Positions 8,080 to 38,001 of a DNA stretch of 64,000 nucleotides are shown piece by piece. Under the pieces are notes generated by a model. That model did not search any database. It was not told the DNA's origin and was given only the letters and a program-made list of their open reading frames with translations. A program made the position numbers and the translations under genes. Position 1 is the first letter of the stretch. Each line of letters opens with the position of its first letter. The DNA is from Aldrovandia affinis (lineage: Eukaryota; Chordata; Actinopteri; Notacanthiformes; Halosauridae). The stretch lies in NCBI GenBank assembly GCA_029706075.1, contig JAINUG010000011.1, positions 3,594,501 through 3,658,500 of the forward strand, in the 5' to 3' direction.

Positions 8080-8426
8080 AAGCTGACTCGGCGGACAAAG
8101 CGGTCCGCAAGAGACTCAAAACCCACCTCTTCAGACTCCACTACCACTGAACACTGTCCATCTAGTCAATCTGTCGTCACCACTGTTTACTTGTTCAAAA
8201 AAAAAAAAAAAAAAAAAAAAAAACAAAAACAAAAAAAAAAAACCCCACTAACCTTTTCTTTCCCAATGTTACAGGTATGATACGCAGACGCCTGCAATGA
8301 TGTCTTTTGCCGTTTTACTGCACTGATCTTGTACGCTAACTTTGATTGTTCTCACCTTGTATTAATGCACATCTTGTAAGTCGCTCTGGATAAGAGCGTC
8401 TGCTAAATGCTCAAATGTAAATGTGT
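8080..8426 (+). mobile_element. L2-clade (UnaL2-like) LINE 3' end
   Basis: One frame reads ADKAVRKRLKTHLFRLHYH followed by a stop near 8147, the typical C-terminus of L2-clade LINE reverse transcriptase proteins in fish. It is followed by a 3' UTR and the tail GTAAGTCGCTCTGGATAAGA then GCGTCTGCTAAATG (8369-8410), the same stem-loop that ends the SINEs at 226 and 1113. This copy therefore links the SINE tails to their probable LINE partner. An A-rich tract of about 45 bp (8197-8241) sits inside the 3' UTR. The copy is heavily 5'-truncated. Confidence 0.75.
8197..8241 (+). repeat. A-rich tract
   Basis: A run of A residues with two C interruptions, inside the 3' UTR of the L2-clade fragment. 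Confidence 0.9.
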
Positions 8427-30515: not shown

Positions 30516-32040
30516 TGACCTACACACGACTGGCTGAAACTGGCTTGGGTCAAGGACCGAGTGTTGTTCTTGGCTTGGCTGAGAGAGCTAATGTCCCACC
30601 TGGATGCAAATTTTATCATGATAATCTCTTTACAAGTTTGTCATTGACTGATGAGATGTGCAAGAGGGGCTATGGAAGCTGTGGTACACTCTGTGAAAAC
30701 CGTCTCTTTGGTGTTCCGCTGACACCAGCTCTGAGATTCAAGAGAAGGGAGAGAGGGGAATCTGAATTCCTTGTTGAAAAAGGAACATTTCTTGTGAGAT
30801 GGAATGACAACAGTGTGGTTACTGTTGCGACAAACATGGAAACAGTGTCAAACTCAACGGTCAATGTTCAAAGATGGAACAAAAAGAAACATGCAATGGC
30901 AATCCTACCCCAGCCAACATGCATTAGCCAGTATAACATGCATATGGGAGGTGTTGATTTACATGACCAATGTGTGGCATGTTACAGGATCAGTATCAGA
31001 TCCAAAAAGTGGTGGTGGCCAATCTACAGCTGGGCACTGAACAGTGCAATGGTCAACAGTTGGTACTATTATCGGTCAGTCTTGAAGGGAGAAGAAGACC
31101 CGCTGTGCTTTCAGAGACGAGTTGCCCAGAGTCTTCTGCAACGCCATGGGGAAAAGTCACGTGGGCATGGAAGGAGGTCAAGTTTTGCACTGCAGATAAT
31201 TGATGCTGGGAGATTCGACAACATCAAGCACTGACCAACAAAAACAGGGAGAAAGTACCAGAGGTGCCGAAAGTGTGGTGGGTGCACTATTGCATGCAAG
31301 CAATGTGATGTTCCATTACACGTTGAATGTTTCAAGGATTTCCACACTCCAATCTGAAACTGGGAAAGTCTAAAGACTGCACAATACATGTTCAAATAGA
31401 TGGATCTAATGACCCAGTTGTTGACTTGTTGTAACAGTTTATGAATTTCTGAGTTTCTTTTATCACAGTACACAGTACATGAAAAACATGATCCGTTTAA
31501 TTCAAATGGTAATGTTCTGTCTGTTTTCAGGACAAAATTGTTTAATATATTTGAATTATTTTTACCTGAAAGAAGATGAATTCATAGGTGTTTTATATTT
31601 TTTAAATGGTTTTCTAATGTTTAAGAATATTTTTCTTTAATTTTGAACAGGATTACCCCTGATATGGGTTGTGTTTCATAAAATTATACGTTTTATGACT
31701 GGTATTCAGTTTATCCATGTGATTTGCAATATTTTCTCGAGAACAGCTCTTAAATGACTTCATATCATGTATTTGATAAAGTTTTCATTGATAAAAGATG
31801 ACACAATGTGCCTAAGACTCTCATTTTCACTCTCATTTTTCAACAAAATACACTATAACATTGCATAGGGGTTCTTACAAGGTATGTGCCCACCGGCCAC
31901 TAAAGTGGCCGTACATTCGAATCATCATTGCTTGGGAAAAAATAATAATAATTGTGAAAAAAACTGCACAACATGTTTATATGGAAGGTTCAAATTATCA
32001 TATATTAGAAATCTCCAGGAAAAATTGGGGCATTAATGGG
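30516..32040 (+). mobile_element. piggyBac transposon, 3' half
   Basis: The frame from 30516 encodes the C-terminal half of a piggyBac transposase. YHDNLFTSLSLTDEM holds the second catalytic aspartate and MGGVDLHDQCVACYRI the third, followed by RSKKWWWPIYSW. An in-frame TGA at 31232-31234 precedes the cysteine-rich C-terminal finger (RCRKCGGCTIACKQCD...LHVECF), which ends at about 31359 in the same frame. The 3' end reads GGCATTAATGGG followed by TTAA (32041-32044), the usual piggyBac target. The GGCCACTAAAGTGGCC hairpin at 31896-31911 fits a subterminal repeat. The N-terminal half and left end are absent. Confidence 0.88.
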
Positions 32041-32406: not shown

Positions 32407-32657
32407 TGAGTGCGTTTGCTTGTTTGTTTGTTTGCTTGTTTGTTTGTTCTGTGAAGCTGTTCCACATTTCAATAGACAAAATGCTAAGTTAAAATAACCA
32501 CGCAGTAGCCTACAGTTTTTAATAAATCGAATTGCACGTGAAAAGTCACATCCATGTCATTATAATGAAAGAAACAGCGCCTCAGGGGTCCGACAACAAA
32601 CCTTTTCAGCTGCAGGTACAATACTTAAGCAGGCTGCAATTACCCTGTAGTGGGGCA

Positions 32658-33100
32658 GATAACCACAACGATTGTGCATTTTGTGATAAAAGCATCAAAT
32701 TTGGTACACATGTAGCCAAAGACATTCCAAAAAGATTTGGATGTGGAGCCATCATGAATTTTCAATGTGTCGCCCATGGCAACCATTATTTCAAAATGGC
32801 CACCAGATGACCACAACGATTGTGTTTTTTCTGATAAAAGCATCAAATTTGGTACACATGTAGCCAAAGACATTCCAAAAAGATTTGGATATTGAGTCAT
32901 CATGAATTTTCAATATGTCGCCCATGGCAACCATTTTTCCAAAATGGCCGCCAGTTAACCACAACGATTGTGCATTTTCCGATAAACGCACCAAATTTGG
33001 TACACATGTAGCCAAAGACATTCCAAAAAGATTTGGTTGTTGAGTCTTCATGAATTTTCAATATGTCACCCATGCAACCATTTTTTCAAAATGGCCGCCA
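32658..33100 (+). repeat. Three tandem 148-bp units
   Basis: Units begin at 32658, 32806 and 32954, each with ACCACAACGATTGTG, the AAATTTGGTACACATGTAGC block and AAAATGGCC near its end. A fourth unit lies inverted at about 35229-35372. Confidence 0.9.
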
Positions 33101-33414
33101 GTGGGCACCAGTGACAACTGTTTTCTTATCAATTTTCTTCTTCTGTCGTAGACGTCTTTTAGACCTGCTGTTCGTTTGAGGTGAGCCAGGCTACTGTGTC
33201 ATTGTCCAGGTCCGGCAATCTGTTTGATAACATTGACCTTAGCAGCGTGAAGGCCTTCAATGTTGAGCTGCAGTAGCGCTAAACCAGCTTGGCTTTTTGC
33301 GGTCTGCAGATGTGTTAAAGACATTAGTTTCACTTTTGGGCCTTTAAGCTACTCGTAGGGGAGGCCACGTAGAGGCTGTCTTTGTCTCCCCAGATTCTTT
33401 TTTTGTTATATAGA

Positions 33415-33560
33415 ACTTGAAAAGGGAAGGACACCCACAAAGCGTCTAAACTTGCTGAGTGCTGAACTTTAATACAAATTACACATGCTGAGAACAACGT
33501 TTTGGTCCTTGACCATCATCAGGATTTATGATTCAGAACTTGAATTTGGAAATTCAGAAT
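33415..33560 (-). mobile_element. Penelope-like tail motif, possible insertion
   Basis: On the minus strand it reads GATGATGGTCAAGGACCAAA then ACGTTGTTCTCAGCATG. The pattern of a short hairpin then AAACGTTGTT is common in the 3' region of Penelope-like elements. Too short for a firm call. Confidence 0.35.
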
Positions 33561-33680
33561 TGCTCAGAAGCTACAATTTAAGACTCAAAATAAGTGATAA
33601 CAATGACCCGCCAAATATAGGGTCTATCACATCAAAGTCTATTTAGCACTCCCCTTCACAGCAACAGAGGGCTGTGCAGT

Positions 33681-34727
33681 CTAATGCAGCTTTTTGCACT
33701 TGCACTGCTTAACACAACCCTTCTTACATTTGCAAGAGACAAGTTCATAGCTGGAATGGCCTGCATCTGGTAGGCATGTCCAGAAGGGTTTGTACCCCTC
33801 AGATGTCTTTGACCATCCCCATCTACACGGTGAAGGTAGTTTTGGTGTGGACACTAGCATCTGACCCCACACATGGCCTCCTTGATACACTGCTCTCTTC
33901 ACATGCTCCTCTAAGGCAGCCTTTGTTGGAGGGATTGACAGCACATTGTGCCTCTTCGCAAACATCTTCCTCCGTGCCTTGTCTATTTCTTTGCATGTGC
34001 TGGTTCGGTCATAAAGAAGGATAATAAACCTCTCGATTGTGGCCATTACCTCTTGTGGTATGTCGTCCAGGGCAGAATATAGTTTCAGCAGGGCATGTGT
34101 CAGCTCAGGAAAGACAGCCCAAACAGCCCACCCTGTCTTCTTCCCGTGGCCAGCAAAGCTTGATACAGTATCACAGCCCGTCAATGCATGGAACATGGGA
34201 AGAGCACGTGCCTTTTCAGGCCCTAGCCCTGCTGCAATTTCATGGGCTGCGAGGTATCGGAAATTCTTTCCAGTTCCAAATGCCAACCAAAGCTCATTTT
34301 CTGGGTGTAGACCCTGAGCCACTGCCACAGCCATCACCACAACATCAGTATCAACAGTTTGAATCATGATTTTCTGATGGCCATTTCTTGCTGCATGGGC
34401 CACATGTAATAACATGCGACTATCAGCTTCCTCGTGTGTACATGGAGCAACTGAAGACGGATCTGGAAGTTGTGGCTTGCTGAAGACTTCCACATCATGT
34501 GTGACAACAAGCTGTTTGTCTTCCTGCACAAACCATCTAAGCAGAGCATCTGAGAGTAAGGTGAACAACTCAGTCTTATTGCTGTCAACTCTGAGAAAGT
34601 CTTGCCAGTTCCTGGGAATAGCTGCAGTACCTACCACACGTCTCTGCACCCCTTTCCCACACTTTGCTCTTGTAGCAGCTTTCAAAGATTCAGACAAGTA
34701 GCGGTCCCACACTGACACTGAACCCCA
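33681..34727 (-). CDS. PIN/XPG-like nuclease domain protein of a mobile element, partial
   Basis: An open frame of about 345 codons with no clear ATG; it reads on upstream as AWGSVSVWDRYLSESLK, so the N-terminus is probably missing. Acidic motifs are spaced as in PIN/FEN1-XPG nucleases: HEEAD (about residues 95-99), VDTDVVV (122-128) and TGCDTVSSFAGHGKKTGW (180-197). The last resembles the GCDY...GIG...A block of FEN1. The C-terminus SCKCKKGCVKQCKCKK is a cysteine cluster that probably binds metal. Similar proteins are, from memory, abundant and uncharacterised in fish and cnidarian genomes, as expected of mobile-element genes. It has no host-gene intron and lies between inverted repeats. Function is inferred from motifs only. 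Confidence 0.7.
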   Translation of the reverse strand, partial: WGSVSVWDRYLSESLKAATRAKCGKGVQRRVVGTAAIPRNWQDFLRVDSNKTELFTLLSDALLRWFVQEDKQLVVTHDVEVFSKPQLPDPSSVAPCTHEEADSRMLLHVAHAARNGHQKIMIQTVDTDVVVMAVAVAQGLHPENELWLAFGTGKNFRYLAAHEIAAGLGPEKARALPMFHALTGCDTVSSFAGHGKKTGWAVWAVFPELTHALLKLYSALDDIPQEVMATIERFIILLYDRTSTCKEIDKARRKMFAKRHNVLSIPPTKAALEEHVKRAVYQGGHVWGQMLVSTPKLPSPCRWGWSKTSEGYKPFWTCLPDAGHSSYELVSCKCKKGCVKQCKCKKLH

Positions 34728-36544
34728 TGCTGAGTTTCACAGCAGTGGTGTCACCAGTGTGCCCTGGCTGTGCTTTGACATCCACTCTATTACTGTACTA
34801 TTTTCTGTAAAACATAGCCACATGTACAGTAATTATTCTTCATTTTGCAGACTTGTGAGTTTATTGGACTTTCGTGTTATTTTATTGGAATTACAATTTC
34901 TATGTTGGCCACCACATAAAAAAGATCTTCTTGAATTATATGATAAAATGCAGCTTCTCTGTAATTCTATAGTTGCAAATTTGAAGTCTGAATCATAAAA
35001 TTGTAGGCCTATGTATAATTTGACCCGAGATCATCCATATCAAAATAATCTATGCAACTTTATTGCAATTACAATTGTCATACCAGTCATGGCCGCCATC
35101 TTGAAAATTGTATTATCCAAATGTCAATTCATAAGAACTATGTATACTAGATAAATTGAGCTTATGTCCTCAATATCATTACATTTCCATCCCTGATAAG
35201 AACATTTATCAGAAAAAATTATCAATAGTGACCAATGGCGGCCATTTTGGTTGCCATAGGCGACATATTGAAAATTCATGATGGCTCCACATCTAAATCT
35301 TTTGGAATGCCTTTAACTATATGTGTACCAAATTTCATGCTTTTATCACAAAATGCACAATCCTTATGGAATTTCTAGCTAAGCTGCACCACTACTGGGA
35401 AACAAATTTGAAGTAGGGGAGAGCGGGGTATGTTGTCACACTTTTCACTCTGTCTTACCTGTACTGGGCGCAATACATTGCAATGGTATAAATGTCATAC
35501 CAAATGAAAGGTGGAAGTCTTGGGCACATATTTTGTATTCCTTACATATTCATATCTTATTTCAGTATGGAGTTGTAGACAGTTAAATAGAGGGTGTGCA
35601 CTTGTGACAACTTACCCCATCAGGGGGTAAGTTGTCACACTATTTCATAGTATGTGGGGTAAGTTGTCACATTGGATTATCAACAAATAAGAATGCAACT
35701 AAATCATTGTGAATATAATCTTTTTACTTTCAAATTCAGAACCAAGTACATTTCATTACAGAACTAATTCATTAAAGAACAAAATGCTTAGTCTTAACAA
35801 AACAGACGTGGTGTAATGCACAACGAAACACTTCTAATCAGGCTCATCTTCAGAGTCACAGTTCTGGCACAAATAAATTGCCTGGCCTGGGGTGCAAGCA
35901 TCATGGGCCCACTTCTTGCATCTCACACACTGCACCCAAGTCTCTTTTGGGCGGCTGTTAGAAAATGGCTCCATGCAGACTAGGCAGAAGCACTCCTCTT
36001 CATCTGATGATGACTCGTCTATTTTTCTTTTTACTGTTGCCTTTTTGTTCTCGACAGATCCAGATTTTGCACTTTGCTTCCCTTCCTCCAGAAACAGCCT
36101 GTTTTTAGATTGTGATTTTTACATTTGTAGTGCTTGCTTCACGGGTGTGTCTGTTAGAATTGAGGTTTTGCACCGCTTTCTACCATTATTAGTTTGTTTT
36201 CAGTGACAGCTTTTGGAAATGGCCGGAGGTCCTCTGGAGTTGGTAGTCTGCTGCCAGCACTGGCATTGCTGGGTAAGGGTGAGCTGGCATGGGAACTGAA
36301 CGGGTCTGCGTCTGTGCTTGTGCCTGGCAGGGCAGGGTCGGTACTGGGGCCTGGCGGGGCAGGGCGATCCATAACATGGGAAGGCGCAAACTCAGTTTCC
36401 AAAAATACATCCCTGTTGTAAGGCTGTACCCCAGCTACCCTAAAGCCAGCCTGAATGTTCAAGGGGGTTGCAGCCACAGGATAAGCGATCCCAGGAATGT
36501 CATAAATTGACATTGTTTTCCCAGGATTGTTCCTCATCCATGCA

Positions 36545-37171
36545 TCACACACTGTGTTGATGTGCCTTTTTAGCAGCCCGTAGACAGACCTGTCTAAGGG
36601 TTGAAGCCGATGAGAGCAGTGGGGTGGGAATGACACCATAATTATGCGGTTTTTCTTTGGCATAATTGAGTCCATCAATGGACATATGAGTTTCGTGGTT
36701 GTCCAAAAGGAGTAAACATGGTTTCTCCTTTGAGCATTTTGTATGCTCAATGAAATGTTTCAGGAAGTCAAAAAAGTGCACATCTTTCATCCACCCCGAG
36801 GGATTTGCCGCTCCCTTGCTGCCAGGTGGTCCGTTGTTTAAAAAATGTTCGCGGAAGTTGACACAGGGAAATATGAAATATGGAGGTATACTATTTCCTG
36901 TGGCTGAGAAAGCACAGGCCAGTGTGACAAGCGTCCCCCTTTCAGCAGAGGTCAGTGACCCTACTTGTTTGAATCCGCGTCTGGCCACTACTTTGTCAGG
37001 TTTATGGACCGTGGTCACCCCAGTTTCGTCGACATTCCATATGTCCCCTGGTCCAAATTGATGTCTGTCTAGCACATTTGCTAAATTGTCGAAGAAGGCA
37101 TTAACATTTTCTCGGTTGAAGCTACTAGCTCTGGCAAGGCTAGTTGCCTCAGGCTTTCTTAGCGTCAGCAT
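36545..37171 (-). pseudogene. pogo-like transposase, DDE core
   Basis: The longest open piece of the pogo-like transposase. It carries the first aspartate in [15 protein letters not shown] and the second in [12 protein letters not shown]. The third (QPLDRSVYG) lies in the overlapping frame downstream, so a frameshift falls between them. Confidence 0.85.
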
Positions 37172-37198
37172 TGGGTGCCGTTTTAAGAAGGCTGTAAA

Positions 37199-37657
37199 CT
37201 ACTCCAAGCTGGCCTTTTCTGTTTCTGCCCACATTGGTGTGAACTTCAACTTGTGTGCCACAGCAAACTGGTAGGCAAGTCTTTTGATCTCACTTGGCGA
37301 CAGACCAAAATAAATGTCAGCTGACCTAGCGATATAATGAACAAGTTGCATCTCCAAATCAGGTGGAAATACCTGCCGTGGCTTTCTATAGCCAACCACT
37401 GTTGTTGGCACGGCTGCCTGACTGACAATTCCTTCGCTGGTAACCTTTTCACAATACCGAGTCAGAGTACGGTAATTTATATTAAAATAGTTTGCTGTGC
37501 TTCTGATTGATTTGTTATCCAGCTTCACCTGCCTGACTGCCTTCAACATTATGTCAGGAGGTGTGTTGCCATTCTCTGTCTTTCTTTTATAATTTCTCAC
37601 CAGCATCTCACTTTCTTTGGTTCCTTCGTTCATTCCTTCCTTTCTTCCTTCCCTCAA
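37199..37657 (-). pseudogene. pogo-like transposase, N-terminal helix-turn-helix part
   Basis: Begins [20 protein letters not shown] and includes a psq/CENP-B-like helix-turn-helix and the start of the CENP-B-type DNA-binding region. It ends at an in-frame TAG, after which the DDE part continues in the same frame. Confidence 0.8.
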
Positions 37658-38001
37658 TGCTTCTTTCCTTCAAAAACACATTTCAATTAGCCTCATGTGA
37701 CAACTTGCCTCAAAGCCATTGAGACAACTTGCCCCAAACGGGCATGTGGGCTAATGTTTGCTAAATCTCACATTTATACCTAACACAGTTTTATTACATA
37801 AAATGTAAGGTGCCATTGACTTACTTTTGAAGGAGACAAACACGAAACTTGTGCTCACATGTAATTAAAGCGATCTTTAATTTGAATTTGACCCTAGTTG
37901 CCACAAAGTAGCTATTTGATTTTTGAGATAGTGCCCCTGTGGTTGGAGGTATGAACAGTGTGACAACTTACCCGTGTGACAACTTACCCCGCTCTCCCCT
38001 A

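Follow-up and report, generated by a model that had tools for sequence, protein, structure and literature searches.

Near the middle of a 64,000-nucleotide window of the genome of the fish Aldrovandia affinis (contig JAINUG010000011.1, positions 3,594,501 to 3,658,500; coordinates below are those of the window) lies an element with matching inverted ends at 32643-35399, which encloses one long open frame related to nucleases. The near-complementary ends described in a first-pass annotation of the sequence are present, the left terminal inverted repeat CCCTGTAGTGGGGCAG (32643-32658, plus strand) being matched in inverted orientation by CCCAGTAGTGGTGCAG on the right (35384-35399, minus strand). 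These positions are the inner limits of the element; the left repeat may begin at 32640 and the right one may run to 35402, a wider option (32640-35402) with outer ends that read TTACCCTGTAGTGG and TTTCCCAGTAGTGG. Inside the ends the arms are inverted copies (90% over 70 nucleotides and 95% over 56 nucleotides) and match each other with a blastn E value of 2.4e-43 within the window, far past chance. The inverted 148-bp modules that the annotation had placed just inside the ends exist as well, but unequally: three modules (D1 family; 100, 93 and 84%) stand in tandem on the left (32656-33099, plus strand), and repeat analysis (I1, I4 and I16) together with blastn revealed a single partial inverted copy on the right (approximately 35236-35369, minus strand). 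An inner pair of inverted-repeat arms, 33525-33580 on the plus strand and 34944-34999 on the minus strand (77% over 56 nucleotides, blastn E 2.4e-5), brackets the coding part.

The open frame and its defects

The coding part consists of a minus-strand frame of 345 codons (33681-34718), which opens with GTG directly after a stop and corresponds to residues 1117-1460 of P0219, a relative of 1,474 residues; its product would be the C-terminal portion of a nuclease domain of FEN1/XPG type, together with most of the tail that follows. This is the frame that had been annotated with HEEAD and other acidic motifs, and the motif acids are invariant in 25/25 rows with a residue there, the window row included, of an alignment of 24 database proteins picked by us and the window (A4); judged by this alignment, the named acidic motifs are more than chance. 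There is no ATG before residue 102, and the earliest in-frame ATG, at 34415, would give a product of 244 residues that begins just past the HEEAD motif, so that an ATG start would forfeit the HEEAD acids. An acceptor-like sequence (CAG/TGTGG) lies just upstream of the frame start, and three of 120 relatives begin at exactly the first codon of the frame, with one more starting one residue earlier. A conserved intron before the frame was considered, and a GTG read as start codon accounts for the shared starts equally well.

The cysteine cluster that had been placed at the end of the frame is present, but its true end lies in another frame. Positions 33696-33646, translated in that frame, correspond to residues 1457-1473 of P0219 (E 0.002) and to residues 962-978 of P0145, a protein of 978 residues from the hake Merluccius polli (E 1.1e-4), and the stop of the cluster in the shifted frame is at 33643-33645, so that the out-of-frame end of this cysteine-rich, CXC-like tail occupies 33643-33696 on the minus strand. 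Going by these matches to relatives, the frame end reported at first is a frameshift and not the usual C-terminus of the family.

The frame is 87% identical to P0219 from residue 1117 on (301/344 positions) and 81% identical to P0145 (278/342), and the remainder of P0219 has been lost from the element: tblastn with 58 long proteins detected no counterpart of P0219 residues 1-1116, with nothing below E 0.04 beyond the known stretch. Compared with P0219, the element is short of 3.3 kb of coding sequence, comprising 1,116 upstream codons with the first catalytic Asp among them, and the window copy retains only the inverted ends and approximately the last quarter of the long reading frame. The 2.76 kb present and the lost coding length add up to about 6.1 kb, in agreement with the 6,216-base contig that carries P0219 and in line with the mean of 5,565 bp given for curated bivalve Academ elements in passages of PMC10294476. 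Of the seven nuclease acids the window frame encodes six; the FEN1/XPG active site is incomplete, the first Asp and its strand lying upstream of the frame and not being found in the element. Because of the deletion, the frameshift and the missing first Asp, no transposase and no working nuclease should be expected from the window copy, and relatives with intact, unbroken frames exist.

Fusion of a FEN1/XPG-like nuclease with a transposase-like region

With the first query, the matches listed reached about 604 residues, and the use of longer relatives as queries extended them to 997 and then to 1,637 residues; 57 of the 299 proteins among the matches listed have at least 1,400 residues. These long relatives are single proteins of approximately 1,400-1,640 residues. 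In each, a middle part with conserved acids is followed, towards the C-terminus, by a fold of the FEN1/XPG/XRN kind, and the protein ends in a cysteine-rich tail. Counted over the A4 rows with a residue at the position and in P0219 numbering, D450 and D453 in DNIDHNP are conserved in 23/23, D623 in FDQPLY in 23/24, and D839 and E843 in DQAHEQNN in 24/24, and we infer that these upstream acids are a candidate DDE triad. DUF6589, a Pfam family of unknown function, exceeded the Pfam cut-off over the upstream region in three of 16 scanned proteins (P0175, P0270 and P0261) and reached E <=0.1 in four of the 25 A4 members, and a profile of the upstream region compared with solved transposases gave no match. 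In P0175, P0261 and P0270, DUF6589 coincides with the candidate transposase region and may form part of a DDE transposase. The first-pass annotation had seen a nuclease carried instead of a transposase, a description not supported by P0219, in which the same nuclease is found inside one protein with a conserved transposase-like region; that region is absent from the window copy.

The prediction of a PIN/XPG-like nuclease, by contrast with that description, is borne out by structure models compared with known folds: those of the window frame and of a relative resemble EXO1, FEN1, XPG and XRN, and on these models the protein of the window frame is a PIN/FEN1/XPG-like nuclease with a PIN-like fold. 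Foldseek support taken alone is modest, and the FEN1/XPG link rests on fold comparison, the sequence profiles being shallow. A Pfam scan of the window frame returned no family, and a scan of its relatives returned ten families, each in a single member and all at chance level (best E 0.048; TCR/CXC E 2.9), which fits the claim that the family lacks a described function. Sequence comparison with the PDB (best E 0.44 and 0.13) provided no FEN1/XPG link, nor did hhalign link the nuclease family to five archaeal FEN1s. Seven putative metal-binding carboxylates are kept in 52/54, 67/68, 68/70, 69/69, 68/69, 67/70 and 69/70 rows of a 70-row alignment that includes the window (A3; rows with a residue at the position), and were matched by order and spacing to the reference list for human XPG in passages of PMC7515719. 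The family therefore resembles FEN1, EXO1, XPG and GEN1 in predicted fold and in the order of the seven acids (D, D, E-x-E/D, D-x-D, D), and GCDTVSxFxGxGKK probably stands at the site of their helix-turn-helix, but it has no detectable sequence-profile similarity to these enzymes and, unlike them, is fused to a transposase-like region and ends in a cysteine-rich tail. With the 5'-3' exoribonucleases XRN1 and XRN2, which act on RNA and are not known from a transposon context, the family likely has only the fold in common.

At least 1,469 relatives of the window frame were retrieved in one search, and those named come from fish (Merluccius polli, Epinephelus coioides), hagfish, lancelet, molluscs (Nucella, Patella, Pinctada), arthropods (Nymphon, Homarus) and cnidarians (Oculina, Actinostola), the nearest being the fish proteins P0053 (85% over 65% of the frame) and P0145; these two, like the UnaL2 elements elsewhere in the window, agree with a fish host. 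Databases label them as 'uncharacterized', 'hypothetical' or 'Tesmin/TSO1-like CXC domain-containing' proteins. The analysis thereby indicates that a very large animal protein family, whose nuclease part is unmatched in Pfam, combines a nuclease of the FEN1/XPG kind with a transposase-like region. Two scans of viral contigs and two of genome contigs found no relatives; two pattern matches in genome contigs were taken as chance, as they fell in bacterial genes with no family-like frame (open reading frame lists, inspected by eye). One Nymphon striatum protein, P0156, which is labelled 'Tryptophan 5-hydroxylase 2', is probably a fused gene model: next to PF00351 it matches the family over 84% of the query.

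Probable assignment to Academ and a proposed mechanism

We consider it likely that the window element is non-autonomous and derives, by internal deletion and a frameshift, from an Academ-type DNA transposon of the cut-and-paste class (AcademX lineage). In its full-length form this transposon would carry the transposase-like region and the nuclease together, and it is most likely AcademX, which is reportedly, after Kojima's work of 2020, a lineage of the Academ superfamily. The AcademX nuclease is reportedly of XPG type, and the first-pass annotation likewise gave Academ elements an XPG-type nuclease. The long relatives and the 1,116 missing codons support the deleted Academ-type element that the first-pass annotation had offered as one option, with the name resting on published descriptions. 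Terminal inverted repeats, required of Academ and AcademX, are present, and an element-encoded nuclease, an AcademX trait, is indicated for the family by the fold and by the seven acids of the long relatives, the window copy holding only part of it. Passages of PMC10045372 state that AcademX encodes a nuclease and ascribe 3 or 4 bp target duplications to AcademX and 9 or 10 bp to AcademH, lengths tied to the encoded nuclease or helicase; the term XPG has no occurrence in that paper. AcademH is the sister lineage in the same superfamily, with a helicase and 9-10 bp duplications (PMC10045372, in part), and Pfam matched no helicase model in those long relatives that were scanned. The window copy is like AcademX in being a DNA transposon whose ends are inverted repeats, in the nuclease that its long relatives carry and possibly in a 3-bp duplication; it differs in being deleted and frameshifted, and the likeness is one of description. 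The element is ordinary in kind, a decayed and non-autonomous representative of a type of transposon already described, and a concrete transposon assignment replaces the claimed nuclease-only transposon.

The target duplication agrees with this assignment, though weakly. A candidate 3-bp duplication, CAA, at 32637-32639 and 35403-35405 (exact match, strand not applicable) requires the outer ends 32640/35402 and agrees with an AcademX-type duplication and with the 3 bp given for Academ in passages of PMC5199201, but it comes from a single copy, in which exact 3-bp flank matches occur at two of 35 symmetric offsets when about 0.5 are expected by chance (35/64). The second exact match is CTG, with ends 32648/35394.

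As no named Academ protein was among the compared sequences, the AcademX name is a best fit by published descriptions, not proof, and a distinct superfamily of the same anatomy, with a transposase and an XPG-like nuclease, deserves some weight; DUF6589, too, has no known function. We regard this as unlikely: against it speak the nuclease and the 3-4 bp duplication reported for AcademX (PMC10045372, in part) and the Academ copies on record in zebrafish, medaka and stickleback, with none in tetraodon (PMC4746887, in part). The separate group suggested by the annotation, driven by the PIN/XPG nuclease itself and lacking a DDE transposase, accords with the missing transposase of the window copy and with its six of seven nuclease acids, and is nevertheless highly improbable, given that the same nuclease, 87% identical, forms the tail of a 1,474-residue protein with a conserved upstream region. 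Moreover, with the first catalytic Asp missing, no ATG ahead of residue 102 and a frameshift, the window copy is unlikely to drive its own movement. Least credible of all is a host nuclease gene fragment caught in a miniature inverted-repeat element, as the gene within long inverted arms with little besides might suggest, against which stand the at least 1,469 relatives, with named ones from fish to cnidarians, and a long form that is transposase-like and not a known host repair gene.

For the full-length Academ-type element we propose that the middle part would act as a DDE transposase, which would pair and cut the ends and join them with a 3-4 bp stagger, cutting and joining one strand at each end, and that the fused nuclease might act at the junction formed by excision or insertion, where it would cut or trim the other (5') strand or a 5' flap. 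Such a split of labour would resemble that of Tn7, in which TnsB and TnsA divide the two tasks. The cysteine-rich tail may aid DNA binding, and the window copy would be at best a passenger, mobile only with enzyme provided in trans by a full-length relative. More speculatively, and with little expectation that both parts will hold, the FEN1/XPG-like module could be the second-strand nuclease of the transposase, one polypeptide combining TnsA and TnsB, and deleted copies made of ends and tail could regulate full-length copies in trans. Binding of the tail to CHR-like motifs in the subterminal modules was considered and dropped, the sites being too few: TTYGAA occurs twice in 0.69 kb of modules (2.9 per kb, versus 1.8 per kb in the window), and TTTGAA/TTCAAA reaches 5.8 per kb in the modules and 3.3 per kb in the window.

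Other mobile sequences lie in the same window. Approximately 15 bases past the right end, a neighbouring transposon occupies 35416-37999, with inverted ends GGGGAGAGCGGGG, TA flanks at 35414-35415 and 38000-38001, and minus-strand frames at 36154-36675 and 36545-37171, which resemble a broken transposase of the pogo/Tigger type. A frame of 192 residues with an MGGVDLHDQ motif (30656-31234) is similar to piggyBac-derived transposases in their C-terminal half. Two 3' elements of UnaL2, a long interspersed nuclear element (LINE) of eel, are located at 391-444 and 8364-8416, both above the Rfam gathering score.
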